Notes under the pieces: generated by a model
Seen by the model: only the letters and a program-made list of their open reading frames with translations
What the model was told of the DNA's origin: nothing
Databases searched by the model: none
Assembly (NCBI GenBank): GCA_016873805.1
Contig: VGVZ01000019.1
Location: forward strand, 1 to 61,376
Length of the DNA stretch: 61,376 bases
Direction: 5' to 3'
DNA from: Ignavibacteria bacterium
GTDB lineage: Bacteria > Bacteroidota > Ignavibacteria > UBA10030
Translations under genes and position numbers: made by a program
Part shown: positions 45,324 to 61,209 of the stretch, one piece after another
Position numbering within the stretch: the stretch's first letter is position 1
Layout: the number at the start of each line of letters is the position of its first letter

Positions 45324-45587
45324 CCGAGGAAGGAAGAGTACTTGCTCCGGTTTTCGAACGTCGCCGATGGCAACGAAATGCCCCCCTTCCTGTCTGTTCT
45401 CAAGGACTATTGTGCGCACCACAAGGTCATCAACACCCGGTCCGTTGGAGCCGATGGAGAGACTCTTGAGATCTCGAACTACGTGAAACTCAGAGACAAG
45501 GGAAAGAACAGTGAGTTTGTCCGGGATTTGCAGAACGTCAAAGGCGTGCAACACGTTAACCTCTATTCTGATGAAGAACATATTTGA
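45324..45587 (+). pseudogene. DUF4956-type protein, C-terminal fragment
   Basis: One frame from the repeat junction reads KEEYLLRFSNVADGNEMPPF, then SVGADGETLEISNYVKLRD and GVQHVNLYSDEEH before the stop. This is the soluble C-terminal domain of DUF4956 membrane proteins, which are commonly encoded with CotH proteins and VTC-type polyphosphate polymerases. The membrane part is gone: it was cut exactly where the inverted repeat begins. A TTG at 45342 could still serve as a start but the product would be a fragment. It overlaps the CotH gene by 17 bases. Confidence 0.65.
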
Positions 45588-47928
45588 TTCACCACGCGTT
45601 GAAATGTCTCCCCTCATCGGGAATCCGAGTCATCCTCACCGGCTCTTGCTGTCGGCGGTCTGCCTCCTCGCCATCTCCTCGAGTGTATCCGTAGTGTTGC
45701 TCGGCCAGGATTTCTATAATCCCACCTCAGTCAACACCATCCACATCACCTTCGCCCAATCGAACTGGAACGATATTCTCCACAATTACTATGCTGCCGG
45801 GAAAGAAGAGCGGCTGACAGGAAATGCCCTTATCAACGGTGTGCCGTTCGACAGCATCGGCGTGCGGTATAAAGGGAACAGCTCGTATAACCGGAACAAT
45901 GCCAAGAATCCTTTCAGCATCAAGCTCAATCACGTCTATTCGAATCAAAAGCTGGACGGATATGGCACCCTGAGACTCTCAAACGCCTTCAAGGATCCCA
46001 CCTTCGTCCGAGAAGTCCTTGGGTACGAGATCGCACGAAAGTATCTCCCCTCGGTTCAGGCGAATTACATCACCGTCACCATTAACGGAATGCTGATAGG
46101 CCTGTACGTCAATGTCCAGGATGTCGATGGGCTGTTCCTGAGATCCTATTTTGGGAGCAGCAAGAATGCTTTTTTCAAGGGGGAGCTCTCCAAAGCACCG
46201 GGACCGGTTACCGTCTGGGGATATCTCGGACGAGACTCCCTCCTCTATCGTTCCTACTACGAGATCGAATCCGATTACGGCTGGACCCAACTGATCAATT
46301 TCCTCGACACGCTCAACAACTATCCCTCCTCGGTTGAAGAAGTTCTCAACGTTGATCGCCATCTGTGGATGATCGCTCTCGATTTCCTCATGGTCAATCT
46401 CGACGCCCCCGTCAACTTCGGACACAACTACTACCTCTACCGGGACGACAGCGGTCAGTTCAATCCGATCATGTGGGATCTCAACGAGAATTTCGGCGCC
46501 TTCAGCCGATTGTTGACCGGCTCGCAGAACCTGACCATTCCGCAAATGCAGCAACTCGATCCGTTTACGCATTCGACACACGCGCAATATCCGATTATCA
46601 GACAGGTCCTCTCAAATCCGACGTACAAGCGAATGTACGTGGCACACATGAAGACGATCATCGAAGAGAATTTCTCGAACGGTTGGTATTCTTCACGAGC
46701 ACTGGCCCTTCAAGCGCCGATTGATTCGTACGTGCAGTCGGATCCCAACAAGTTCTATTCGTACAGCAACTTCCTGAACAACATCAATACCCAAGTCGGA
46801 ACGACTCAGCCTCTTGTGGGAATTACGCAGCTCATGAACGGGAGGGTTTCGTACCTGCATGCGCATTCCTGGTTCACGGCTTCAGCTCCCGTCATCTCCA
46901 ATATTTCGATGCCGACGAACGCATCCCCCGGCTCGAGCATCTGGATCACCGCACGTGCAATCAATGCCACGTCCGTCATTCTTGGATATCGCACACGGGG
47001 CGGGGGACGATTCTGGAAGACAAAGATGTATGACGACGGAGCACACGGCGATGGAGCGGCCGGTGACGGCATGTTCGGAGCATCTGTGACGGTCGGATCG
47101 GGCAACCTTGAATACTATATATATGCGGAGAACAACAACGCGGGGAGCTTCTCACCAAAGCGGGCGGAGTATGAATACTATACGCTTCAGGTGTCACCGG
47201 GAGATGTGGTGATCAATGAGTTCATGGCCGACAACAGATTGACAGTTGCCGACCAGAACGGAGAATACGACGACTGGATTGAATTGTACAACAATAGCTC
47301 TGCCCCCTTCTCCCTGAAAGAGTACTATCTTTCAGATAACGGTTCGAACCTGACGAAATGGAAATTTCCCGATGTGACCATTGCGGCTCATGGTTATCTG
47401 ATCGTCTGGGCCGACAACCAGGCAAGTCAGGCAGGCCTGTACGCCAACTTCGCACTGGCGAAAGCGGGAGAGGCGATCTACCTTGTTCATCCAGACGGGA
47501 AGTCGATTGTCGATCAAGTAGTATTCGGCCCACAGGAAACAGATATCTCGATGGGTCGATTCCCCGACGGGACGGGGAATTTCGTTTTTATGCTTCCCTC
47601 ATTCGGGAGGTCAAACAACGGTCCATTGGCAACTGCGGAACAAGACGAGACATCGAGTCTCCCTGCCCAATTTCAACTGATGCAGAATTATCCAAATCCA
47701 TTCAATCCGAGTACAACCATTCAATTTGTCCTTCCTCGGACCGAAAAGGTTTCCATGACCATATCAAACGCTCTTGGTCAAATTGTCGCGACGATGGTGG
47801 ACAATATACTGCCTGCCGGAGAGCATAGCTATCGATGGGATGCCGGTGGATGCCCCGCAGGAGTTTATTTGTTGAGGATGAAGGCGGGCGAGTACAGCAA
47901 GAGCAGAAAGATGGTACTGCTGAAGTAG
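45571..47928 (+). CDS. Secreted CotH-family protein with lamin-tail and type IX sorting domains
   Basis: The protein is 785 residues from the ATG at 45571; 45604 is the alternative start. A signal segment (about 28-46) leads into a CotH domain (about 55-400). It shows VRYKGNSSYNRNNAKNPFSI, SNAFKDPTFVREVLGYEIAR, and the acidic metal-site MWDLNENFG. A beta domain of the cell-surface type follows (about 435-540), then a lamin-tail domain starting VVINEFMADNRLTVADQNGE. The C-terminus (about 705-785) is a type IX secretion sorting domain (QNYPNPFNPSTTIQF). CotH proteins are atypical protein kinases in spore coats and occur widely in bacteria. The sorting tail predicts export and surface attachment. 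Confidence 0.9.
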   Translation: MKNIFDSPRVEMSPLIGNPSHPHRLLLSAVCLLAISSSVSVVLLGQDFYNPTSVNTIHITFAQSNWNDILHNYYAAGKEERLTGNALINGVPFDSIGVRYKGNSSYNRNNAKNPFSIKLNHVYSNQKLDGYGTLRLSNAFKDPTFVREVLGYEIARKYLPSVQANYITVTINGMLIGLYVNVQDVDGLFLRSYFGSSKNAFFKGELSKAPGPVTVWGYLGRDSLLYRSYYEIESDYGWTQLINFLDTLNNYPSSVEEVLNVDRHLWMIALDFLMVNLDAPVNFGHNYYLYRDDSGQFNPIMWDLNENFGAFSRLLTGSQNLTIPQMQQLDPFTHSTHAQYPIIRQVLSNPTYKRMYVAHMKTIIEENFSNGWYSSRALALQAPIDSYVQSDPNKFYSYSNFLNNINTQVGTTQPLVGITQLMNGRVSYLHAHSWFTASAPVISNISMPTNASPGSSIWITARAINATSVILGYRTRGGGRFWKTKMYDDGAHGDGAAGDGMFGASVTVGSGNLEYYIYAENNNAGSFSPKRAEYEYYTLQVSPGDVVINEFMADNRLTVADQNGEYDDWIELYNNSSAPFSLKEYYLSDNGSNLTKWKFPDVTIAAHGYLIVWADNQASQAGLYANFALAKAGEAIYLVHPDGKSIVDQVVFGPQETDISMGRFPDGTGNFVFMLPSFGRSNNGPLATAEQDETSSLPAQFQLMQNYPNPFNPSTTIQFVLPRTEKVSMTISNALGQIVATMVDNILPAGEHSYRWDAGGCPAGVYLLRMKAGEYSKSRKMVLLK

Positions 47929-48284: not shown

Positions 48285-48412
48285 CGCGCCTTTCAGGAAC
48301 CGGCAACTTGCTTCTCGTGGAATCTCCAGCTAAATTTTTTTTGCGGTCTCCGCAGTGTCAATGGCGGCCAGCAACTTTCTACGAAAATTCGTCGATACCG
48401 AAAGGCAAAGCT

Positions 48413-49699
<1,287 letters not shown>

Positions 49700-49770: not shown

Positions 49771-51540
49771 ATGAAGAGGCTCTCTGATACCGTCACGACT
49801 GATGCTATGAGACAGTTCGATCGCGAGTTTGCCGACCCCGAACATCGCTTCAAGTTTGTCGGATCGGGTGCTCTCGGCGGCAAGGCGCAAGGGTTGGCAT
49901 TCATCCAAAACACTCTCTCCTCCGCGTTTCCGTCGGATCGCTTTCCGCAGATCGAAGTCAGCATCCCCAGCCTTGCAGTTCTCCGCACCGACGTATTTGA
50001 CGCGTTCATCGAACGGAACAAGCTCCTCGAGGTCGCAATGTCTGACGCTTCCGATAGCTTTATCGCTTACCGGTTTCAACAAGCAGAGCTGCCTGCGGAG
50101 ATCCTTGGGGATTTGCGAGCCATCGTCGAGCGTGTCCGCACCCCTCTTGCGGTTCGATCCTCAAGCGTATTGGAGGACGCGCTGTATGAGCCGTTTGCGG
50201 GAGTGTACGCAACAAAGATGATTCCGAACAATCAACACAGTGCCGATGAGCGTTTTCGCAAACTCGCGGAAGCCATCAAATTCGTCTATGCCTCTACCTA
50301 CTTCAAAACGGCCAAGGAATACGTTGACGCGACGCGGAATACGATCGAGGAAGAGAAGATGGGAGTAATTATTCAGGAGGTCGTAGGTGGGCGCTTCAAT
50401 GATCGCTTCTATCCCCCCATCTCGGGCGTCGCAAGGTCGTTCAGTTACTATCGCTCCGGCCGATCACGCCCCGAGGAGGGGATGGCAAGTCTCGCGCTTG
50501 GACTCGGTAAGACCATCGTCAATGGCGAGCCATGTTGGACGTACTCCCTCGCTCACCCGCGTGTCCCCCCCCCTGCAGCCTCGCCGGCAGAACTGGTGGA
50601 GCAAACGCAATCAACCTTCTGGGCGGTGAATATGGGGAAACCCCCCGCATACGATCCGATCGCAGAAACAGAATATCTCGTGAACGCAAGCCTCACCGAG
50701 GCGGAACAGGACGGAACGCTTCGATATGCTGCTTCCACCTATGACGCGCACTCTGATCGGATATCCCTGGGACTGGGTACTCAAGGTCCGCGCGTCCTTA
50801 CATTTGACCCGCTCCTTGTCATCAATGAAGTCCCCGTGAATGATCTTATCAAGTTCCTTTTGGCTCTGTGCGAACAAGCTACCGGTTCACCCGTCGAAAT
50901 CGAGTTCGCGATGACATTTGATCCGCACAGATTGGGTTTCCTGCAGGTGAGACCCATGGTTGTCGCGACTGAGTACGTACAGATCAGCCCCGGCGAGATG
51001 CAGGGAGGGCGAGTCCTCGTTGCCTCAGAGACCGTACAGGGCAACGGCGTGTATGATTCGATTCGAGATATCGTCTTTGTCAAACCTGATGCATTCCAAG
51101 CGAAGCACTCGGTACGAATCGCAGAGGAACTTGAAAGCGTAAACAGGAACATCGTGACAGAAGGAAACACATTTGTGTTGATTGGATTTGGCCGATGGGG
51201 AAGCCAAGACCCATGGTTGGGAGTTCCCGTGCGGTGGGGACAAATTGCCGGTGCGCGGGTAATTGTCGAAGCAACGCTTCCCGCGATGGTTGTAGAGCTG
51301 AGCCAAGGTTCACATTTCTTTCACAACTTGATGAGTTTCCGGGTAAGTTACTTTTCTGTGCCGCACACAGGCGAGTTCCAGATTGACTGGCCATGGCTCG
51401 ACCGGCAGGAGATACGACAGGAGACACAATTCATTAAACATGTCAGGGCGCGAAAACCATTGATCGTGAAGGTCGACGGCCGGACCGGTCGGGGTGTGAT
51501 CCTGACAGCCGAACGACGGAAAGAAGAACACTGTGAATGA
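49771..51540 (+). CDS. PEP/pyruvate-binding ATP-grasp protein lacking the phosphohistidine domain
   Basis: The protein is 589 residues. The N-terminal two thirds form the ATP-binding domain of PEP synthase/pyruvate phosphate dikinase: GALGGKAQGLAF near residue 32, TPLAVRSSSVLEDALYEPFA near residue 126, and GVIIQEVVGGRF. The swivelling phosphohistidine domain (TxGGxTSHAAI) and the C-terminal PEP barrel are missing. Instead there is a conserved block with GFGRWGSQDPWLGVPV (G474-S478) and ELSQGSHFFHNLMSF (H515). A canonical PEP synthase is about 800 residues. It therefore probably phosphorylates something other than its own histidine, or acts with its partner. It overlaps the next gene by 8 bp. 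Confidence 0.8.
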   Translation: MKRLSDTVTTDAMRQFDREFADPEHRFKFVGSGALGGKAQGLAFIQNTLSSAFPSDRFPQIEVSIPSLAVLRTDVFDAFIERNKLLEVAMSDASDSFIAYRFQQAELPAEILGDLRAIVERVRTPLAVRSSSVLEDALYEPFAGVYATKMIPNNQHSADERFRKLAEAIKFVYASTYFKTAKEYVDATRNTIEEEKMGVIIQEVVGGRFNDRFYPPISGVARSFSYYRSGRSRPEEGMASLALGLGKTIVNGEPCWTYSLAHPRVPPPAASPAELVEQTQSTFWAVNMGKPPAYDPIAETEYLVNASLTEAEQDGTLRYAASTYDAHSDRISLGLGTQGPRVLTFDPLLVINEVPVNDLIKFLLALCEQATGSPVEIEFAMTFDPHRLGFLQVRPMVVATEYVQISPGEMQGGRVLVASETVQGNGVYDSIRDIVFVKPDAFQAKHSVRIAEELESVNRNIVTEGNTFVLIGFGRWGSQDPWLGVPVRWGQIAGARVIVEATLPAMVVELSQGSHFFHNLMSFRVSYFSVPHTGEFQIDWPWLDRQEIRQETQFIKHVRARKPLIVKVDGRTGRGVILTAERRKEEHCE

Positions 51541-54500
51541 AAATCAACAATCAGTCGACAAGCTCCTTCTGGAACTCAAAGAGCGCGCCAAGGAACTGAA
51601 TTGTATCTACAGGGTCGAAGAGCTTTTCAGTGTCGCCGATATCACGCTCGAAGAAATTATCCGCGGGATCGTCCGGGTGATTCCGGCTGGCTGGCAGTAC
51701 CCCGATGTGTGTGAAGCGCGCATCACCTATGCCGGCGCGATATACCAAACGCCTGGCTTCTCGACTGCACCATGGGAGCTGTCGGTTAATCTCATCGTGC
51801 AGGAAGAGGTTGTCGGGCAGATCACAGTGTGCTATACCGAAGAGCGACCTCCCGCCGATGTCGGACCATTCTTGAAGGAAGAACATAAGCTTATCAATAC
51901 GATCGCGGATCGTCTCGAGCGACGGATTCTTCACGAAACACTGAGGACGGTCTTCGAGAGTCAATCACAGTCGAGTCGAGTAGAAACCGATTGGCAGGTG
52001 ATCCTTGATCTGCTACGAAGAACGGATCCCAAGCTGCTCACCCGCATATCAAGGAAGATGCTCCATCTTCTTTCGTGGGCCGGAGTGGAAGATGCGGATC
52101 GAATGTTGGAACGGTGTGGTCCCCCTTCGTGGAACGATCTAGGCGGTGCAGGCGAAGAAGTCAACCGACCCTCTCGGGTGAACGTGACGCAAGATCTTCA
52201 AGCGGCCAGCCAGGAGATATTCGAGCTGGCAAGCAGGCATCTCGGCGAAAAGGAGATCCTCTCCAAGATTCGAGCATGGATAAAAGAAGATCGCTCAGGG
52301 TTTTTGGTGAAGATCCTCGAAAATCCGGCCGCCTCGCTAGCCGAGATCATCGGCGCGATTGAACGCTTCCATCATCTAGGTCCTGAGGATATTGAGCTCT
52401 CCGCCCCTCGAGAACTGACCTTCCGGGTCTCCCTCATTCGTCGGATCTTGAGTGACGACCCCCAGTTTGTGCAAATGGCAAAGCGCTTCCTTGACGTAAA
52501 CAACTTCTTCGAGCTTCTGCATCGCATTATCTATCCAGCGGGAAGCCACGGCAGGTTAGGGGGGAAGAGCTCCGGTCTCGCCCTCGCCTGGCACATCCTG
52601 CAGAAATTGGGAGTGGATGTCCCCCTCCTCGGTCAATTCAAGATGCCGAAGACGTGGTATCTCACTTCGGACGGCATCCTCCGTTTCATCGATTACAACG
52701 ACCTCGAGGAAATTGTAGAGCACAAATATGAGAGCGTGGCTCAGGTGCGCCAGGAGTACCCATACATCGTTCACATCTTCAAGAATTCCGCCCTCCCGCC
52801 AGAGATCATGAACGGTCTTTCCGTCGCCCTCGACGATGTCGGTGAAACGCCTCTTATTGTCCGGAGCTCCAGCCTGCTGGAGGACCGTATGGGCACGTCC
52901 TTCGCAGGAAAATACAAGAGCCTCTTCATTGCAAATCAAGGGCCAAAGCAGCAGCGTCTTTCGGCGTTGAAGGACGCCATCACTGAAGTGTACGCCTCCA
53001 CCTTCGGGCCCGATCCGATCGAATACCGCGCGGAGCGCGGATTGGTCGATTTCCATGAAGAGATGGGAATCATGATCCAAGAGGTGGTCGGAACGCGCAT
53101 CGGCCGCTACTACCTTCCTGCTCTGGCAGGGGTGGCATTCAGCCAGAACGAATTTCGATGGTCCCGCCGAATTCGGCGGGAGGACGGCCTTCTCCGGATG
53201 GTCCCGGGGCTCGGTACGCGAGCCGTCGATCGGATGGCTGACGACTACCCGATCCTGATCGCTCCCGGTCAACCGGCGCTTCGAGTTAACATTACGTTAG
53301 ACGAAAAGATTCATTACTCCCCAAAAAAGATTGACCTCATCAACTTGGAGAAGAACCGTTTCGAGACTGTTGAGATCAAGCATCTGCTCAGTGAATTCGG
53401 GGATGAATACCCGATGCTGAACCAACTCGTTTCGATCCTTCGCGATGATCGCTTGGAGCAACCCACAGGACTTGGAATCGAACGGGAAAGCGATCATCTC
53501 GTTGTAACCTTTGAAGGGTTGATCACGAGGACGCCGTTCATTGACCAAGTGCGCACGGCTCTGAAGGTGCTGCAGAAGGAATTCGGAAGGCCGGTGGATC
53601 TTGAATTTGCTCACGATGGGCGAGATTTGTACCTTCTGCAATGCCGCGCCCAGAGTTATGGGGAGGCTACTCAACCGGCGGTTCTTCCGAGAGAGATCCC
53701 TCAAGAGCGCATCCTTTTTTCGGCGCGACGCTACGTTTCGAACGGCGTCGTCTCGGGCATCACGCACATCGTCTACGTTGATCCACAAAAATACGCCGAA
53801 TTGACACACCGATCTGATTTGCTCGCTGTCGGCCGGGCTGTCGGCAAACTGAATCAGATCCTCCCCAAACGACAATTCATTCTGATGGGGCCCGGCCGCT
53901 GGGGAAGCCGCGGCGATATCAGGTTGGGGGTAAGTGTTTCCTACTCCGACATCAATAACTCAGCCATGCTCATCGAGATCGCCCGACGTCAGCGGGAATA
54001 TGTTCCTGAGCTTTCGTTTGGAACGCATTTCTTCCAGGATCTCGTTGAGGCCTCCATTCGATACCTCCCTCTCTATCCCGATGACGCGAACATCCTATTC
54101 AACGAACAGTTCCTCTTGACCACGAACAACACCTTGAACAGCCTCCTGCCCGAGTTCGCACACCTTTCCGACACGATTCGTGTCATTGATGTTCCTTATG
54201 CGACTGGAGGATTGGTTGTGCAAATCCTTATGGATGCCGAAATTGACGAGGCTGTGGCAATTCTTACGGATCCGTCCCTTGACCTTTCCGATCCCCGCCC
54301 TGAACGAATCGGAACCGAGAGGTACTCGCACCAGAACGATGATCACTGGCGATGGCGACAGCAGAGCGTTGAACAATTGGCTCAATCGTTGGATCCGGAT
54401 CGCTTCGGCGTGAAAGCACTCTATCTTATTGGAAGCACGAAGAACGCCACCGCAGGGCCGGAGAGTGACATTGATCTTCTTGTCCATGTTTGCGGTTCAG

Positions 54501-54718
54501 CGGAGCAGCGGATCAGCTTGATGAGCTGGTTGGATGGTTGGAGCATTTGTTTGAGTCACCAGAACTACGTGAGGACCGGGACCAAGACCAACGGCTTGCT
54601 CGACGTTCACATCATCACCGATGAAGACATTCAGAAACGGAGAAGTTTCGCGGCAAAAATCGGTGCCACGACCGATCCTGCCCGGTTCATTCCACTGGGG
54701 AAACACACCTCCCACTAA
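51533..54718 (+). CDS. Sensor / PEP-synthase-like ATP-grasp / nucleotidyltransferase fusion
   Basis: This is a 1061-residue protein. Residues about 20-135 resemble a GAF-like sensory module known from histidine kinases (LNCIYRVEELFS, RVIPAGWQYPDVCEARITYA, LKEEHKLINTIADRLERRI). A helical linker follows. The PEP-synthase ATP-binding domain spans about 335-720 (GGKSSGLALA at 343; LIVRSSSLLEDRMGTSFAGK, R444; GIMIQEVVGTRIG). The block shared with the upstream protein is at about 770-850 (GPGRWGS at 787-792; ELSFGTHFFQDL, H832). The C-terminus (about 950-1061) is a complete nucleotidyltransferase: G967-S968, D979-I-D981 and a third acid D1024 (LLDVHII). There is no phosphohistidine domain. It ends the gdh operon. 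I know of no named protein with this layout. Confidence 0.8.
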   Translation: MNENQQSVDKLLLELKERAKELNCIYRVEELFSVADITLEEIIRGIVRVIPAGWQYPDVCEARITYAGAIYQTPGFSTAPWELSVNLIVQEEVVGQITVCYTEERPPADVGPFLKEEHKLINTIADRLERRILHETLRTVFESQSQSSRVETDWQVILDLLRRTDPKLLTRISRKMLHLLSWAGVEDADRMLERCGPPSWNDLGGAGEEVNRPSRVNVTQDLQAASQEIFELASRHLGEKEILSKIRAWIKEDRSGFLVKILENPAASLAEIIGAIERFHHLGPEDIELSAPRELTFRVSLIRRILSDDPQFVQMAKRFLDVNNFFELLHRIIYPAGSHGRLGGKSSGLALAWHILQKLGVDVPLLGQFKMPKTWYLTSDGILRFIDYNDLEEIVEHKYESVAQVRQEYPYIVHIFKNSALPPEIMNGLSVALDDVGETPLIVRSSSLLEDRMGTSFAGKYKSLFIANQGPKQQRLSALKDAITEVYASTFGPDPIEYRAERGLVDFHEEMGIMIQEVVGTRIGRYYLPALAGVAFSQNEFRWSRRIRREDGLLRMVPGLGTRAVDRMADDYPILIAPGQPALRVNITLDEKIHYSPKKIDLINLEKNRFETVEIKHLLSEFGDEYPMLNQLVSILRDDRLEQPTGLGIERESDHLVVTFEGLITRTPFIDQVRTALKVLQKEFGRPVDLEFAHDGRDLYLLQCRAQSYGEATQPAVLPREIPQERILFSARRYVSNGVVSGITHIVYVDPQKYAELTHRSDLLAVGRAVGKLNQILPKRQFILMGPGRWGSRGDIRLGVSVSYSDINNSAMLIEIARRQREYVPELSFGTHFFQDLVEASIRYLPLYPDDANILFNEQFLLTTNNTLNSLLPEFAHLSDTIRVIDVPYATGGLVVQILMDAEIDEAVAILTDPSLDLSDPRPERIGTERYSHQNDDHWRWRQQSVEQLAQSLDPDRFGVKALYLIGSTKNATAGPESDIDLLVHVCGSAEQRISLMSWLDGWSICLSHQNYVRTGTKTNGLLDVHIITDEDIQKRRSFAAKIGATTDPARFIPLGKHTSH

Positions 54719-54875: not shown

Positions 54876-54902
54876 CAATATTTATTTTTGGGAGCGGCAC
54901 TA
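54876..54902. repeat. 27-bp 3'-end repeat supplying a stop codon (copy 2)
   Basis: This stretch matches 100-126 at about 21 of 27 positions, has the same orientation, and its final CTA is the stop codon (TAG, minus strand) of the metallophosphoesterase gene. It also shares part of the GCTCCC sequence with the neighbouring hairpin. Confidence 0.35.
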
Positions 54903-55772
54903 GAGCAGCACACGACTCGCTCGATCCAGATAGTCCAAGTCAAATCGGATCAGCGCTAACTCCGGGCCATCATGCGCGGCGGAAAACGCATAGGTTCTCC
55001 CAATGCACTCCTTCCAACTTCCTGTGATTCTGGGTGACTCATGAACGTGTCCGTGCAGCGTCAGGAGTGGTTGGCGTGCTTCGATGAATCGCTTGATAGC
55101 GATGCTCCCAACATGCACATCCAGAGGTGCGTGGTCGAATGCCTTCCCATCGAGTGCGGCCCGATCGAGCGCTGTGCGGTAGGGGGGAGCATGAAAGAGA
55201 AAGATTGAGCGGGAGAGGTCTTCCTTCCCAACCAGTCGGTCAAGATCGTCCTGAATGGTGGTTCGCTGCGCCTCAGTCTTCAGTTCCTCAATGGAATGCC
55301 ATCCTTCCTCCGGCGGAATGCAACCGGGATCCACAAACTTCGACACATCGTATCGCTCCCAATCTTTCAAGAAAAAAGGAGTCGGTGGGACGTACGTATA
55401 CCCGTACACCCGGTAGTCATTGAGCGGAACGTGCTTGGCGTGAACATAGTCCCAAAGTCTTTCCCGCTCACCTGCTTCGAGCTCGGCTTCGCGCATCCTG
55501 CCATCGTCATTTCCGAGGATAACAAAAACGCGAGGATAGCCGACTCCCAGATCGCGCTTAAGCCTCTTGAAACCGGGATTGATAACATCTTGGAGCGTAT
55601 CGCGCCCCGCTTTCTTCACATCAGCCAGAGATTGTAACGGGGACACGAACAGATCGCCGCCAAGGAAGACCGCGATTGGTCGTTCACGCCTGATCGCAGC
55701 AAACAGCCTTCTGAAGCGAGCTACCTTGCCGTGAAGATCTGAGACAAAGAAACAGTGTTTGCACTGGATCAT
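54900..55772 (-). CDS. Cytoplasmic metallophosphoesterase
   Basis: This 290-residue calcineurin-like phosphoesterase has no signal peptide. The metal-binding motifs are FFVSDLHGK (DxH), FLGGDLF (GGD), VILGNDDGR (GNxD/E) and LTLHGHVHESPR (GHxH). The GNDD variant in place of GNHD is found in several YfcE- or Icc-like groups. The substrate cannot be predicted. Its stop codon is provided by the 27-bp repeat. Confidence 0.88.
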   Translation of the reverse strand: MIQCKHCFFVSDLHGKVARFRRLFAAIRRERPIAVFLGGDLFVSPLQSLADVKKAGRDTLQDVINPGFKRLKRDLGVGYPRVFVILGNDDGRMREAELEAGERERLWDYVHAKHVPLNDYRVYGYTYVPPTPFFLKDWERYDVSKFVDPGCIPPEEGWHSIEELKTEAQRTTIQDDLDRLVGKEDLSRSIFLFHAPPYRTALDRAALDGKAFDHAPLDVHVGSIAIKRFIEARQPLLTLHGHVHESPRITGSWKECIGRTYAFSAAHDGPELALIRFDLDYLDRASRVLL

Positions 55773-55924: not shown

Positions 55925-56998
55925 CTATGGACGTCGATGCAATCCCCCCAAACGGGTCATCTTTATTTCATGGGCTATGGCACTCATATCCGACTTCACC
56001 CTCGGCCTACTTTCCTTGTCGCCGCAATTGAACTGGCGAGCTGGCCTCTCCGGAACAATTCCACCGCGTTGCCCTTTCCTGATGTGCTGTTTTGGATTGG
56101 CCGTCACTGTCAGCGAGTCGAATATTGTTCCATCCGCGAGGACATGTCTCAGTACGAGTTTGTGGCCACTAATCATGCACTCAGTATATCCGCGGCTGGA
56201 GGTGTATTTCTCGACCATGTAGGCGTTGTTGTCTTCGTTGGGATTCACAGCGTACGGAGGCGCACCGCCGTTCCCCGTCACAATCTGCATTATCCCTCTC
56301 ACGTCATCGACTGGGGGATTTATCTCTCCGTTGAGTTTGAGTTTCTTTGAACGGACGTAGTAATGCGCATGTCCCATGAACATGATGTCCGCGCCATGTT
56401 CGTAGAGCGGTACCCCCCACTCACGGTGAAGCTTTTCCTCGTATTTCTTCGGACCGAAATCAAAGATCGGGTGATGCCAGATGGTGAGGAGCCACTGTTT
56501 GGGATTGTTTTGGATGGCATCCATCAGCATATCCCGCTGGGGACCATCAGGCGGTTCCATTGAATTCAAAACGAGGAACCGCACGTTTTCGTAATCGAGA
56601 ACGAAGTACCGTCCTCCGTTTCCGAAACGCTGTTGGCCCGGCAAGTACTCTGCCCAGTTTGAATCCCCATCGCCCGGAACTCGATCGTGATTACCCGGAG
56701 CGGCCATGTATTTCGGAGGATTTTCATTCTGGCCAATTCCTCCCAATTCCTCATCGACCGCGGCCTGCCACGTTCTCCAGTCCTTCGATTCAGATCCCCG
56801 GTTCACCACGTCGCCGACATTGATGATGAATCTATAGTCGGGAGAATTTTTCATCATCGACTGCAGAACCGAACGGTGTGCATTGTCATGTGTGCGTGTG
56901 TCACCATAGATGATGAATTTCCACGACTGGCTGTGCAGAGAGAGGGGAAGGAATACGGCGAGGAGACAGAGAACAAAAAGTCGCGTTACGTTCTTCAT
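55925..56998 (-). CDS. Secreted calcineurin-like phosphoesterase
   Basis: The protein is 357 residues from the ATG at 56998, chosen because AAAGGA lies six bases upstream; the ATG at 57004 directly abuts that sequence. A signal peptide (about 1-23, ending LHSQS) is followed by a purple-acid-phosphatase-like fold. Metal ligands appear in IYGDTRTHDN, NVGDVVNRG, AAPGNHDRVPG, WHHPIFDFG and MFMGHAHYYVR. It has a C-terminal beta extension of basic character (PKQHIRKGQRGG). It would hydrolyse phosphate esters outside the cytoplasm. A hairpin-forming repeat lies upstream. Confidence 0.88.
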   Translation of the reverse strand: MKNVTRLFVLCLLAVFLPLSLHSQSWKFIIYGDTRTHDNAHRSVLQSMMKNSPDYRFIINVGDVVNRGSESKDWRTWQAAVDEELGGIGQNENPPKYMAAPGNHDRVPGDGDSNWAEYLPGQQRFGNGGRYFVLDYENVRFLVLNSMEPPDGPQRDMLMDAIQNNPKQWLLTIWHHPIFDFGPKKYEEKLHREWGVPLYEHGADIMFMGHAHYYVRSKKLKLNGEINPPVDDVRGIMQIVTGNGGAPPYAVNPNEDNNAYMVEKYTSSRGYTECMISGHKLVLRHVLADGTIFDSLTVTANPKQHIRKGQRGGIVPERPARQFNCGDKESRPRVKSDMSAIAHEIKMTRLGGLHRRP

Positions 56999-57044
56999 AT
57001 TCATTCCTTTCTCGATTTCCGTCGGCGCCGGTTAAAATCCCTGC

Positions 57045-57226: not shown

Positions 57227-58357
57227 TCAATATGTGCCCGAACCCCCACCCTGCTTATTGAACCACGGTTTCACACTCTCCGACATCGGTACGGATGGTT
57301 TCTCCATCCCGCGCCTGACGCGAATGAGTTCGGCCACGATGCTGACTGCGATCTCCTCTGCCGTCACCGCGCCGATATCCAAACCGATGGGAGCGTGAAC
57401 GCGTTTGAGTGCATCGAGCGAGACTCCATCTTGCAGGAGTCGCTCGTACGTGGCTATCACCTTCCGCTTGCTTCCGATCATGCCGATGTAGCGCGCTGAG
57501 GTCTTGATCGCCCGGGCAAGCACCTCGCCGTCTAACTGATGCCCGCGCGTCACAATAACCACAGAAGTGGAGTCTTTGATTTCGAAGTGATCAAAGGCAA
57601 CATCAATGGGCATGAGAATGATCCGGACTGCGTCGGGAAACCGGCGGGGGTTTGCATATTCTTCACGGTCATCGACAATCGTCACACGAAATCCTGCCGC
57701 GGACGCGATTTGCGAGACAGCGCGAGCGATGTGTCCGCCGCCGAACACAATCAGCGGCTGGAGGCCGGCGATCGGCTGGAGGAGGAGCTCTCCGGACTTT
57801 CCCGGGATCCGAACCGGCACTTCCTGACGATGAGTTCTTTCGATCGCCTTCGAGAAGTCATCGGGGGAGATCTGAAGCTTGCCGCGAAGGGGGGCCGACT
57901 GCTCAAGCAGATGAGTACCAGTGGAGAGATTTTCCAGCACCATTCTGTCTATCACCGTTTGTCGTTCATCCAACATCCGGAGCAGCGCGCAGTCCTGTCC
58001 CTCGTGTCGAGCAGAGTGAAGTTTCGAGAAGATGAGCCGATCGGAATCCTCGATCACTTCAAAAAGAACGTCTACACTCCCCCCGCAAATCATCCCCCCT
58101 TCACTCTTCGTGTCGCTCAGCTCAAATGTCAGAACGAACGAGGCACCACGTTGCGACACCATGGCCTTTACCTGATCGATCACCCGAGCTTCGAGGATTC
58201 CTCCCCCGACGGTACCGATCACGATTTCACCAACCGGTTTGAACACAAGCACCGCTCCGGAGGGGAGGGGCGTGGATCCGGACGAGGTAATCGTCGTCGC
58301 GATCACAACCCGTTCGAGATTATCAAGCGCGGTCTTGATTTCGCTGAGAATATCCAT
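57227..58357 (-). CDS. xdhC: XdhC/CoxI-family molybdenum hydroxylase maturation protein
   Basis: The protein is 376 residues. The N-terminal XdhC domain has IATTITSSGSTPLPSGAVLV, GTVGGGILEARV and MICGGSVDVLFE. The C-terminal Rossmann domain shows IVFGGGHIARAVSQIA, VTIVDDREEYANPRRFPDA, VIVTRGHQLDGEVL, YIGMIGSKRK and APIGLDIGAVTAEEIAVSI. XdhC proteins sulfurate or insert the molybdenum cofactor of xanthine-dehydrogenase-type enzymes. No such enzyme is encoded in the window. It ends an operon with ygeY and the PLP enzyme. Confidence 0.93.
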   Translation of the reverse strand: MDILSEIKTALDNLERVVIATTITSSGSTPLPSGAVLVFKPVGEIVIGTVGGGILEARVIDQVKAMVSQRGASFVLTFELSDTKSEGGMICGGSVDVLFEVIEDSDRLIFSKLHSARHEGQDCALLRMLDERQTVIDRMVLENLSTGTHLLEQSAPLRGKLQISPDDFSKAIERTHRQEVPVRIPGKSGELLLQPIAGLQPLIVFGGGHIARAVSQIASAAGFRVTIVDDREEYANPRRFPDAVRIILMPIDVAFDHFEIKDSTSVVIVTRGHQLDGEVLARAIKTSARYIGMIGSKRKVIATYERLLQDGVSLDALKRVHAPIGLDIGAVTAEEIAVSIVAELIRVRRGMEKPSVPMSESVKPWFNKQGGGSGTY

Positions 58358-58372
58358 ACGATCGCAGAAATG

Positions 58373-59578
58373 TTATCGCAACTTCGATGAGCTTGTGAAT
58401 ACGAGAGGAAACATCGCGTACCACGCCATGGCTTTCACAAGATGCTCAACGGGAATCTGCTCTGTCGCCATGTGCGCATAGATCTCGTTTCCGGGTCCGA
58501 ATCCGATACAGGGGATCCCGTGCATTCCCATCACGGCCACGCCGTTGGTGCTGAAGACCCAGCGGCCAACGTACGGCTTCTCTCCAAATAGCGATTCAAA
58601 GCTCTCGATTCCCGACATGAGGACCGGATGGTCTTCGGGGAGGAGCCATGTGGGATAGTGTTTCTTGGTGGGATAGGTGAGCCCCCGCCAGCTTGGCACC
58701 GCATAGTCGAGCACAACGACCTCTGCCTCAGCCTTCTTCACACTCGGCAATTCTTCGATTTCCCTCACGGCGGATTCCATTGTATCGGTGGCAGCCAACC
58801 GTCGATCCAGATGAATCGTCGATGAATCCGCAACTGCGCAAAGAGAGGGAGAGGTGGAACGGATTTCTGCGATTGCTACGGTCCCTTTGCCAAGGAAGGG
58901 CTCACCGCCGAGTCGGTCGTTGAGCTTTTCGATATCCTGGACGATCGGTGCCATTTTGTATACCGCGTTCACCCCACGCTCGGGGGCCGAGCCATGACAC
59001 GATATTCCCTTTGTGCGGACTTCGATTTCCATCCGGCCCCGATGACCGCGGTAGATGCCGAGATTCGTTGGTTCCGCAATGACTACTACCTCGGGTCGAA
59101 TCTTATCTTCCTGAATAATGTACTGCCAGCACAATCCGTCGCAATCTTCCTCCTGCACGCTTCCAACGACATAGAGCGTGTAGTCATCCTCAAGACCCAG
59201 CTCCTTGATCAGTCGACCCCCGTAGACAATCGAGGCCACGGCTCCTTTCATGTCGCACGCGCCGCGTCCGTAGATGATTCCATCTTTCATATCCCCTTTG
59301 AACGGATCGACGGTCCAATTTGCCGGATTCCCCACATCAACCGTATCGACGTGCGCATCGAGGGCGATGATCTTCTTTCCTTTCCCGATCCGACCGAGGA
59401 TATTCCCCATTGGATCGATCGTGATTTCATCATACCCCAGCTTTTTCATCTCCTCTTCAATCCGATGAATCACCTGCTCCTCCTGCGAGCTGAGTGATTT
59501 GATGGAGATCAGATCGCGGAGGAATTTGATGACGTTTTGTTCGTTCTTCTTTGCCGCATTCAAGATTTCGTTGTGCAT
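58373..59578 (-). CDS. ygeY: YgeY-type M20 peptidase-fold hydrolase
   Basis: This is a 401-residue metallohydrolase of the M20/ArgE/DapE fold. It has the zinc ligands in ALDAHVDTVDVG (HxD), GRGACDMKGAVAS and VQEEDCDG (EE), and C-terminal HMATEQIPVEHL. It closely resembles the YgeY family that travels with xdhC and selenium-dependent molybdenum hydroxylases in purine-degrading bacteria. Its natural substrate is unsettled. It sits 15 bp before xdhC and 14 bp after the PLP-enzyme gene, so the three are co-transcribed. Confidence 0.9.
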   Translation of the reverse strand: MHNEILNAAKKNEQNVIKFLRDLISIKSLSSQEEQVIHRIEEEMKKLGYDEITIDPMGNILGRIGKGKKIIALDAHVDTVDVGNPANWTVDPFKGDMKDGIIYGRGACDMKGAVASIVYGGRLIKELGLEDDYTLYVVGSVQEEDCDGLCWQYIIQEDKIRPEVVVIAEPTNLGIYRGHRGRMEIEVRTKGISCHGSAPERGVNAVYKMAPIVQDIEKLNDRLGGEPFLGKGTVAIAEIRSTSPSLCAVADSSTIHLDRRLAATDTMESAVREIEELPSVKKAEAEVVVLDYAVPSWRGLTYPTKKHYPTWLLPEDHPVLMSGIESFESLFGEKPYVGRWVFSTNGVAVMGMHGIPCIGFGPGNEIYAHMATEQIPVEHLVKAMAWYAMFPLVFTSSSKLR

Positions 59579-59592
59579 GATCGTATTCCGTT

Positions 59593-61044
59593 TCAGCGTG
59601 CCATTGTGTTGAAGTCATTGATCAATCGATCGAAGTATTCAACTTCGTCTTCGAAGAGTGTTCGCCAGTACTCCGGATTCCATTGTTCCGTGATCTCCTC
59701 GTAGGTCTTCCCTTGCTGTTCAACCCAGGTGAAATACTTCAAGTTATGGATCGCCTTCCGCTCGTGGAACGTGAGTTCTTTGAACCAATCAATCGACTGG
59801 TGCGCAAGCGGACCAGCCATATCTTTGGCCGCCTCAATGGTCGAATATTTGCCCCGTTCGCCGCGCAGTTCTTCAAGCCGCGATTGATAGAGATCGACGG
59901 AATCGGTGAAGACCGTGAAGACGACATCGTTCTCTGTCAGTTCGAAATACTTTGCCGTCTTCACAGCGGCCAGCATGTTCGCGATGGCGGAGATGCCGAG
60001 CAGGGAGAGAGAAGTGATTTCCGATTCCGACATTCCAAGAGATGAAAGGTATTTCTTTCCTTCCGCCTCGTTGAAGAGTCTGAGAATGCGCATGCAGTCT
60101 TCATCATCGATCGCGGCAATAGCGTCCGTGCTCCGCACATTGTGGACCCAGGGGACATGCTTGTCGCCGATTCCCTCGATCCTGTGACCGCCGAATCCAT
60201 TCATGAGCAATGTGGGACACTGCAGGGCTTCCGTGGCAACGATTCTGAGTTGAGGGAATCGTTTCTTCAAGAAGTCTCCGGCGGCGAGGGTGCCGGCCGA
60301 TCCGGTTGCCGAGATGAACGCTGCGGCGCTCAGTCCAGACGGCTTCAGAGCATCAAACACCTCTTCGATTGCCGGTCCCGTTACGTTATAGTGCCAGATC
60401 GGATTGCCGAATTCTTCGAACTGATTGAAAATGATGTTGATCGGATCTTTCTTGAGTTCCCAGCACTTGTCGTAGATTTCCTTGACGTTCGATTCGCATC
60501 CGGGAGTCGCGATCACCTCTGCTCCGATTTCCCCCAGCCACTGGAAGCGCTCCTTGGACATCTCTTCCGGCAGGATAGCGATCGGCGTGCATCCCAGGAG
60601 GGCGCAATCGAATGCGCCGCCGCGACAGAAGTTTCCTGTCGAGGGCCAGACGGCCTTGTGCCGCTCCGGATCGAACTCGCCGCTGACAAGTCGCGGGACC
60701 AGGCAGCCAAACGCAGCTCCGACCTTATGCGCACCCGTCGGAAAGTACTTGCCGATCAGGCCAATCACGCGCGCCCGCACTCCGGTTATTGCCGACGGAA
60801 TCTCGACACAGTTCACGCCGCCGAAGAGGCCGGTCGTGATGTCGTTCTTCCATGTGATGCGGAAGAGATTGAGAGGTTCGAGATCCCACAGCCCGACGTT
60901 TTTCAGTTTGGAGGTAATCGACGAGGGGATTGATATCGGATCTCTCAATTGCGCGAAGGTGGGAATGAGGATGCCCCGTTCCTTGCACCGCGTAGCGGTT
61001 TTCTTGATGACGTCAGGGTGAAGTTGCTTAATGATATTCGACAC
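59593..61044 (-). CDS. PLP-dependent enzyme, fold type II
   Basis: The protein is 483 residues. The start is taken as the GTG at 61044 because AGGAG lies 7 bases upstream; the frame continues open to 61086 through a repeat. Fold-type II features are the cofactor lysine K107 in PTGAHKVGAA, the phosphate/substrate loop WPSTGNFCRGGAFDCALLG, and FISATGSAGTLAAGDFLKKR. It is related to threonine synthase, cysteine synthase and diaminopropionate ammonia-lyase but longer than most. With ygeY and xdhC it probably acts in breakdown of an amino acid or purine product; the reaction is unknown. Its first ten codons are duplicated at 45.3 kb. Confidence 0.85.
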   Translation of the reverse strand: MSNIIKQLHPDVIKKTATRCKERGILIPTFAQLRDPISIPSSITSKLKNVGLWDLEPLNLFRITWKNDITTGLFGGVNCVEIPSAITGVRARVIGLIGKYFPTGAHKVGAAFGCLVPRLVSGEFDPERHKAVWPSTGNFCRGGAFDCALLGCTPIAILPEEMSKERFQWLGEIGAEVIATPGCESNVKEIYDKCWELKKDPINIIFNQFEEFGNPIWHYNVTGPAIEEVFDALKPSGLSAAAFISATGSAGTLAAGDFLKKRFPQLRIVATEALQCPTLLMNGFGGHRIEGIGDKHVPWVHNVRSTDAIAAIDDEDCMRILRLFNEAEGKKYLSSLGMSESEITSLSLLGISAIANMLAAVKTAKYFELTENDVVFTVFTDSVDLYQSRLEELRGERGKYSTIEAAKDMAGPLAHQSIDWFKELTFHERKAIHNLKYFTWVEQQGKTYEEITEQWNPEYWRTLFEDEVEYFDRLINDFNTMAR

Positions 61045-61209
61045 ATCTGCTCCTGGAAAGATGAACCGCGGATTGCGCGGAAACAACGCGGATGCACGCC
61101 GATATGAAATCCGTGTCTATCCGCGTCCTATTGTTTTACGATCGTTTGCGAAGACTCTTCGAATGAACTGCGCCTTTGGGCCGAAGTTGAAAAGAAAACC
61201 CAACTCCAT
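61019..61209. repeat. Inverted repeat, right copy
   Basis: This is the reverse complement of 45130-45321 with few differences. It covers the first codons and ribosome-binding site of the PLP-enzyme gene, the palindromic CGCGGAT element with TCTATCCGCGTCCTATT, and the 3' end of a GxxExxY gene. The PLP-enzyme promoter must lie in or beyond it. Confidence 0.85.

Follow-up and report, generated by a model that had tools for sequence, protein, structure and literature searches.

A GAF-fold, ATP-grasp and nucleotidyltransferase protein encoded beside glutamate dehydrogenase: a candidate signal-responsive phosphotransferase

Why should a ligand sensor, an ATP-grasp of the PEP synthase type and a nucleotidyltransferase (NTase) be joined in a single chain, and on what does such a protein act? 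The question is raised by a gene, here named BIG, in a stretch of 61,376 nucleotides from an Ignavibacteria bacterium (contig VGVZ01000019.1; hereafter the window). The original prediction regarded BIG as an unusual fusion and a self-contained signalling enzyme, analogous in logic to the adenylyltransferase that controls glutamine synthetase. The answer that we favour, with a probability of about 45%, is that BIG works as an ATP-dependent phosphotransferase that responds to a signal and acts through its output on the adjacent glutamate dehydrogenase (GDH).

BIG is a real open reading frame with a GTG start, and its 5' end overlaps by 8 bases the upstream frame, SMALL, which has neither sensor nor NTase. 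The gene order is GDH, SMALL, BIG, and a metallophosphoesterase (MPE) faces these genes (Table 1). The operon GDH matches ELFV_dehydrog (1.4e-67) and ELFV_dehydrog_N (1e-53) in Pfam and the Pyrococcus-type GDH 1gtm (3.3e-122); because its homology is conserved only from about residue 38, translation probably begins at the ATG near 48413.

Table 1. Coordinates in the window of the genes, domains and candidate site discussed in the text
Feature	Position	Strand	Extent or basis
Glutamate dehydrogenase (GDH)	48308..49699	+	463 aa from listed TTG
SMALL	49771..51540	+	589 aa; PPDK_N ATP-grasp (residues 34-401, 1.5e-31) and GRWGS/GSHFF domain
BIG, reported fusion protein	51533..54718	+	1061 aa
BIG GAF-fold sensor domain, residues 8-145	51554..51967	+	VIA-align 3cit_A Z 13.6
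BIG helical connector, residues 150-333	51980..52531	+	DSSP of AlphaFold model
BIG PPDK-type ATP-grasp, residues 338-714	52544..53674	+	Pfam; alignment; structure comparison
BIG GRWGS/GTHFF domain, residues 715-912, predicted swivel-like fold	53675..54268	+	alignment; model
His832 codon, candidate phosphoryl-carrying histidine	54026..54028	+	conservation across family
BIG minimal nucleotidyltransferase (NTase), residues 938-1055	54344..54697	+	PF01909; conservation; Foldseek
MPE, calcineurin-like metallophosphoesterase, convergent neighbour	54900..55772	-	PF00149 2.6e-10

Relatives of BIG were collected by a scan of bacterial and archaeal genomes, from which the best 80 loci of at least 584 confirmed candidate stretches were kept (their best segments are 51-63% identical to BIG). 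In this family such a fusion is nothing unusual: 78 of these best 80 loci match nearly the full length, from residue 11 or before to residue 1029 or beyond. Their record titles name Acidobacteriota, Calditrichota, Bacteroidota, Ignavibacteria, Zixibacteria, Delongbacteria, Krumholzibacteria, Eisenbacteria, Aminicenantes, Planctomycetes, Spirochaetes and others; since metagenome assemblies make up most of the records, an individual taxon name may be in error. Matches to BIG above 900 bits occur in 35 of the 395 genomes of the window's phylum. A third class besides BIG and SMALL, here named RRP, has about 1000 residues, with two receiver-like regions, the ATP-grasp and the C-domain shared by all three; over the core that the two have in common, its identity to BIG is about 27%. 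In a tree with midpoint root BIG forms one branch, and SMALL and RRP together form another; the signal-input domains are a GAF fold in BIG and receiver-like domains in RRP. The RRP of the window's genome carries an in-frame TGA, at which selenocysteine is unlikely, a relative having Ala there. We take BIG, SMALL and RRP to form a family, apparently not described before, of putative signal-responsive phosphotransferases that are linked to GDH and most likely control it; in the open-access literature that was searched, no paper was found on PPDK_N proteins paired with GDH.

The three modules that had been named for BIG do exist. A Pfam scan places PPDK_N (PF01326) at 341-714 (E 5.4e-55) and NTP_transf_2 (PF01909) at 956-991 (E 5.4e-5, 24 bits, above the cut-off of 21). 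For the sensor the sequence profile and the fold disagree: the scan detected no GAF family in BIG at E<=1, whereas residues 10-145 of an AlphaFold model (75-sequence alignment, mean pLDDT 82, pTM 0.66; one BIG alignment took 75 of 83 sequences) match the GAF domain 3cit_A over 126 residues with an rmsd of 2.3. The N-terminus is thus GAF-folded as modelled, in agreement with the ligand sensor of histidine-kinase type that had been suggested. The same kind of domain is also N-terminal in histidine kinases near some BIG homologues (loci L064 and L092).

Mean identity to BIG is 40.5% in the connector, 61.8% in the ATP-grasp and 63.8% in the GRWGS/GTHFF domain. The ATP-grasp residues K345, R444, D689, E691, Q703 and R705 are invariant across 93 BIG rows. 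Moreover, K345, R444, E691, Q703, R705, R789, E815, S828 and H832 are identical in 93 BIG, 58 SMALL and 47 RRP rows, with one SMALL row gapped in most of these columns and the R444 column free of gaps; at position 689 BIG has Asp, and almost every SMALL and RRP row has Glu. Lys, Arg, Asp/Glu, Glu, Gln and Arg together are what we take to be the PPDK catalytic set. A passage of one study describes Lys22 of rifampin phosphotransferase as essential and gives Lys22 also for PPDK (PMC4844700). Whole-model alignments of BIG to PEP synthase, PPDK and rifampin phosphotransferase run past the ATP-grasp, in PEP synthase and PPDK on into the swivel, and they place BIG 302-913 on residues 13-467 of PEP synthase and BIG 302-925 on residues 12-523 of PPDK. 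The C-terminal PEP/pyruvate-binding domain is absent from BIG in the Pfam scan, and BIG scores 50.9 bits against the NCBIfam model TIGR01418, whose cut-off is 739.75.

A fourth module, overlooked by the original prediction, lies between the ATP-grasp and the NTase and bears the motifs GPGRWGSxGD (786-795) and SFGTHFF (828-834). It is the module common to all relatives, following the ATP-grasp in BIG, SMALL and RRP alike. An alignment of this C-domain took 77 sequences, picked by hand from about 170. The three architectures together comprise 198 relatives, of which all but the gapped SMALL row carry His832 (197 rows), and Arg789, Gly791, Glu815, Ser828 and Asn774 are kept in the same rows with the same exception. 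Modelled alone, the domain reaches pLDDT 91.8 and pTM 0.87 and has a strand-loop-helix order with the histidine at the start of the helix. Comparison by VIA aligns it weakly to RPH residues 756-867 (Z 5.2) and PPDK 373-519 (Z 4.9), all Z-scores being below 6, which according to the tool may mean merely a common arrangement; 36 of the 50 rows of the list belong, presumably, to the swivelling beta/beta/alpha fold of SCOP. Its location also speaks for a swivel, since it directly succeeds the ATP-grasp, the position that the swivel takes in PEP synthase and PPDK. Sequence comparisons gave no such relationship: the Pfam scan (E<=1) did not find the swivel domain PF00391 in BIG; a profile comparison of the C-domain against 29 bona fide swivel domains returned a probability of homology of 0.2%, and one with four swivel sequences from a stricter regular expression showed no similarity either. 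Foldseek of the domain alone against the PDB gave no match at E<=0.001, the top row being unrelated. The family motif S-x-G-[ST]-H differs from, and is shorter than, the swivel motif T/SxxGGxxxH given in a portion of PMC12167813. We regard the domain as a likely candidate for a phosphohistidine domain, whether divergent from the swivels or analogous to them.

The NTase looks active in the window protein and in most relatives, as judged from its residues. These lie where they had been placed: among 82 aligned sequences, the window included, G967 is found in 81, S968 in 80, D979 in 80, D981 in 76 and D1024 in 79 (alignments of 82 and 81 rows, limited to homologues that match 900 or more query residues in a single frame). 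Foldseek finds 2rff (E 0.017) and the HEPN-MNT structure 8xeh (E 0.06). Neither Foldseek nor VIA named further families for parts of the BIG model, to which we attach no weight. Mean identity to BIG is 58.6% in the NTase region (79 rows) and 14.1% in the linker that precedes it (80 rows), so the conservation of the NTase is not due to chance. These observations would fit an improbable reading in which the NTase is the true output, BIG nucleotidylating GDH or SMALL in the manner of GlnE/GlnD while the ATP-grasp has merely an allosteric or docking role; indeed the identity of the NTase is near that of the ATP-grasp. However, a catalytic Asp is changed in six of the 79-80 rows having the region: D981N in four, including one at 66% identity from the same family (L004), D979N and D981K in the degenerate site of L110, and D1024S in L074; S968 is Arg in L039, and L086 and L111 are truncated. 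Moreover, SMALL and RRP, in which domain scans gave no NTase match, are still paired with GDH, and one BIG homologue without NTase (L135) adjoins GDH and SMALL in a genome that also has a full-length copy with GDH (L136). The NTase-less homologues and the changed Asp residues make the NTase an unlikely core of the machine, and the invariance of the ATP-grasp residues argues that the ATP-grasp is not a dead scaffold. In the phosphotransferase reading the NTase would be a second output, dispensable to the pairing with GDH.

That pairing, at which the original prediction had hinted, is strong and widely conserved. At least 3.5 kb of sequence precedes BIG in 59 loci. In 56 of these an operon-type GDH, encoded on the strand of BIG, lies within a covered stretch of up to 8 kb, and SMALL intervenes in 42 and not in 14; the other three have a divergent GDH (L048), SMALL and a 45% identical GDH downstream (L096) or SMALL only (L087). 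For the 20 best-scoring loci of the phylum, GDH is upstream in 18 of 19 testable cases (12 with SMALL), the nineteenth reading GDH2-RRP-SMALL-BIG (L191) and the twentieth locus reaching the contig end. Among 11 divergent BIG homologues picked for short or outlying matches (L133-L143), GDH adjoins in only six; L133, L134, L141, L142 and L143 have none in the fetched region. RRP was followed in a fetched subset of the listed RRP-type matches (L113-L132, L144-L152 and L203-L222), picked blind to their neighbours: it lies within 1 kb of a GDH-family frame in 50 of 56 cases (22/23, 7/9, 21/24) and not in six. RRP is often flanked by two GDHs that differ from each other, and at four loci (L144, L145, L147, L148) RRP and GDH are encoded on opposite strands. 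In the window's genome a PF00208 search finds two GDH-family genes, each adjoining a member of the BIG/SMALL/RRP family. All these loci are related by descent, so the counts are not independent, and many come from metagenome assemblies; an artefact or an accident of neighbourhood is nevertheless very improbable, given that the pairing recurs in two deep branches, in several gene orders, in many deposited phyla and in independent assemblies. SMALL is not essential: only one (G046) of 16 genomes with SMALL-less loci, whose completeness is not given, has a SMALL-sized homologue elsewhere.

The paired dehydrogenases are of differing types, namely the operon GDH, GDH2 and a third type 45-52% identical to the operon GDH. 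Lys106, Lys130 and Asp182, presumably the catalytic motifs, are kept in operon GDHs, and as a clade (n=70) these carry Trp279 in 97% of sequences. An insert of six residues also follows the second strand of their cofactor domain, at a place where the rows shown for other GDHs contain a short Ser-Asp- or Pro-Asp-Gly-type loop. The signature may be an element for docking or cofactor choice. As a plausible docking or specificity element it would suit a non-covalent role, in which ATP-driven binding of BIG, SMALL or RRP changes the oligomer or the cofactor use of GDH; we consider this quite improbable, because the near-universal His832 and the metal- and phosphate-binding residues point to chemistry.

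The phosphotransferase reading can be laid out in four steps: (i) the GAF domain would read a metabolite of carbon/nitrogen status; (ii) the ATP-grasp would use ATP to phosphorylate His832 of the GRWGS/GTHFF domain, in the way that PEP synthase and PPDK load their swivelling histidine domain; (iii) the phosphoryl would be passed to an acceptor, the simplest candidate being GDH itself or a ligand bound to it, and so alter GDH activity; (iv) the NTase may provide a further modification, nucleotidylating GDH, SMALL or another partner. The acceptor is placed outside the protein because no small-molecule acceptor domain, whether pyruvate- or drug-binding, was found in BIG or SMALL; for the same reason, and because GDH and often SMALL accompany BIG, the notion of a self-contained enzyme is doubtful. 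The convergent MPE is a candidate reversing enzyme that may undo the phosphoryl transfer. Of 66 loci with 0.9 kb or more of room, 44 have an MPE homologue within 1.5 kb of the end of BIG and 22 have none in this interval; in the phylum the count is 15 of 20 loci. Compared with PDB sequences, MPE gave chance matches only. The domain order, the ATP-grasp residues, the near-invariant His832, the intact NTase residues of this protein and the array with GDH are read directly; whatever goes further, namely each reaction, the ligand, the acceptor and the part played by MPE, is inferred.

The same machinery could instead serve a metabolic enzyme, whose ATP-grasp and C-domain phosphorylate or nucleotidylate a compound derived from GDH-supplied glutamate or 2-oxoglutarate, with the GAF and receiver domains tuning the flux. 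The well-characterised PPDK_N enzymes PEPS, PPDK, RPH and HpeHI act on small molecules, as stated in parts of PMC4844700 and PMC12167813, and the invariant polar residues N774, R789, E815, S828 and H832 of the C-domain seem excessive for a pure phosphohistidine carrier. We nevertheless hold it rather unlikely, since sensor or receiver domains occur in both deep branches, the GDH partners clearly differ in type, and no constant third pathway enzyme was noticed among the neighbours, which were annotated in part. The BIG family is most economically read as a signal-controlled dikinase with GDH in the acceptor role.

GDH holds a central place where carbon and nitrogen metabolism meet, and to our knowledge its post-translational control in bacteria has been described in few cases; in actinobacteria GarA-type binding proteins control it. 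Many bacteria keep a multi-part protein of the BIG type beside the GDH gene, where it is probably a switch acting on GDH. More tentatively, and on balance doubtfully, the family may represent a dedicated and widespread covalent control of GDH, in which sensor-driven PPDK-type phosphotransferases with a new phosphohistidine domain target GDH or a GDH-bound ligand and exist in two deep versions, the GAF/NTase-bearing BIG and the receiver-type RRP. If true, many lineages would have a general means of controlling GDH in a conserved sensor-phosphotransferase encoded next to it, PEP-synthase chemistry would extend from the making of metabolites to signalling, and BIG and RRP would stand to GDH as GlnE and GlnD stand to glutamine synthetase. 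A hypothesis of function is hereby offered for a family that NCBIfam models match merely as weak relatives of PEP synthase.

Among known systems, GlnE and GlnD resemble BIG in logic, each placing a module of the NTase superfamily on a signal-reading protein of nitrogen metabolism, and to this extent the analogy originally drawn with them stands; it does not extend to sequence, BIG having a single minimal NTase and no GlnE or GlnD match in Pfam (E<=1). The window's genome has separate GlnE-, GlnD- and PII-family genes, so a replacement of GlnE by the BIG system was rejected, and their presence suggests that the system is an added layer. MNT/MntA of the HEPN-MNT systems shares the small NTase core (MntA model E 7.5e-4), but BIG reaches 19.3 bits against a cut-off of 60, its NTase is fused to a sensor-dikinase, and no HEPN partner caught the eye in the array. 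PEP synthase, PPDK, RPH and HpeHI have the same PPDK-type ATP-grasp with its lysine, arginine, Glu and Gln-x-Arg set; in the first two the His domain follows the ATP-grasp, as in BIG, and in RPH and the split HpeHI it works with it. BIG differs from these dikinases in lacking PF00391 by sequence and a PEP/pyruvate- or substrate-binding domain, and in having the additional GAF and NTase modules and a fixed GDH partner. The enzyme I of the nitrogen PTS, EI-Ntr (PtsP), uses PEP and not an ATP-grasp, has no NTase and gives its output via HPr/EIIA-Ntr, and BIG shows in Pfam neither PF00391 nor a PEP-binding domain, as a PEP-dependent enzyme I would. The likeness between the GAF folds of the two proteins is generic (3trc, Z 11.5). 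As a GAF-controlled His phosphotransferase that reads nitrogen status, EI-Ntr is nonetheless the nearest working parallel to what we propose for BIG: in Caulobacter, according to a section of PMC4848567, glutamine inhibits its autophosphorylation.

One genome (G384) carries two copies of the locus (L135 and L136), one arranged as GDH, SMALL (the ATP-grasp protein without sensor or NTase) and BIG (the sensor/ATP-grasp fusion) without its NTase, the other as GDH and BIG with the NTase, and this pair is a natural test case for the role of BIG's NTase. In another genome, a SMALL-like fragment of 37 residues with two stops lies immediately upstream of BIG (G032:C152:20493-20603) and is apparently a decayed SMALL.

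The N-terminal sensor domain of BIG is also present in histidine kinases encoded near BIG at four loci; the two signalling types may therefore share sensors. The cofactor-binding loop of the operon-type GDHs (window 48308-49699 and 70 homologues) has a shared signature, a Trp plus an insert of six residues, that may influence the choice of NAD(P) or serve partner docking. The receiver-type paralogue in the window's genome is interrupted by a single in-frame TGA, where a relative has Ala, and is either a pseudogene or the product of an assembly error.

Features near BIG homologues, in the window and elsewhere in its genome
Feature	Location	Strand	Remark
Histidine kinase near BIG	L064 1571-2785		clear Pfam matches
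Histidine kinase near BIG	L092 683-2773		clear Pfam matches
Histidine kinase near BIG	L104 2536-3747		called by eye
Histidine kinase near BIG	L110 8911-10365		weak HisKA match
Receiver-type paralogue (RRP)	L113 7933-10947 (G000:C3)		outside window; adjoins genome's second GDH
CotH kinase-like protein bearing a Lamin Tail Domain and, at its C-terminus, a secretion sorting domain	window 45511-47928		
Second metallophosphoesterase-like ORF	window 55925-57004	minus	apparently secreted; judged by eye only
XdhC-family aldehyde oxidoreductase maturation factor, YgeY-family selenium-linked hydrolase, cysteine synthase-type PLP enzyme	window 57227-61086	minus	YgeY-family match above cut-off

The last three genes, grouped together, resemble a selenium/purine-linked cluster.
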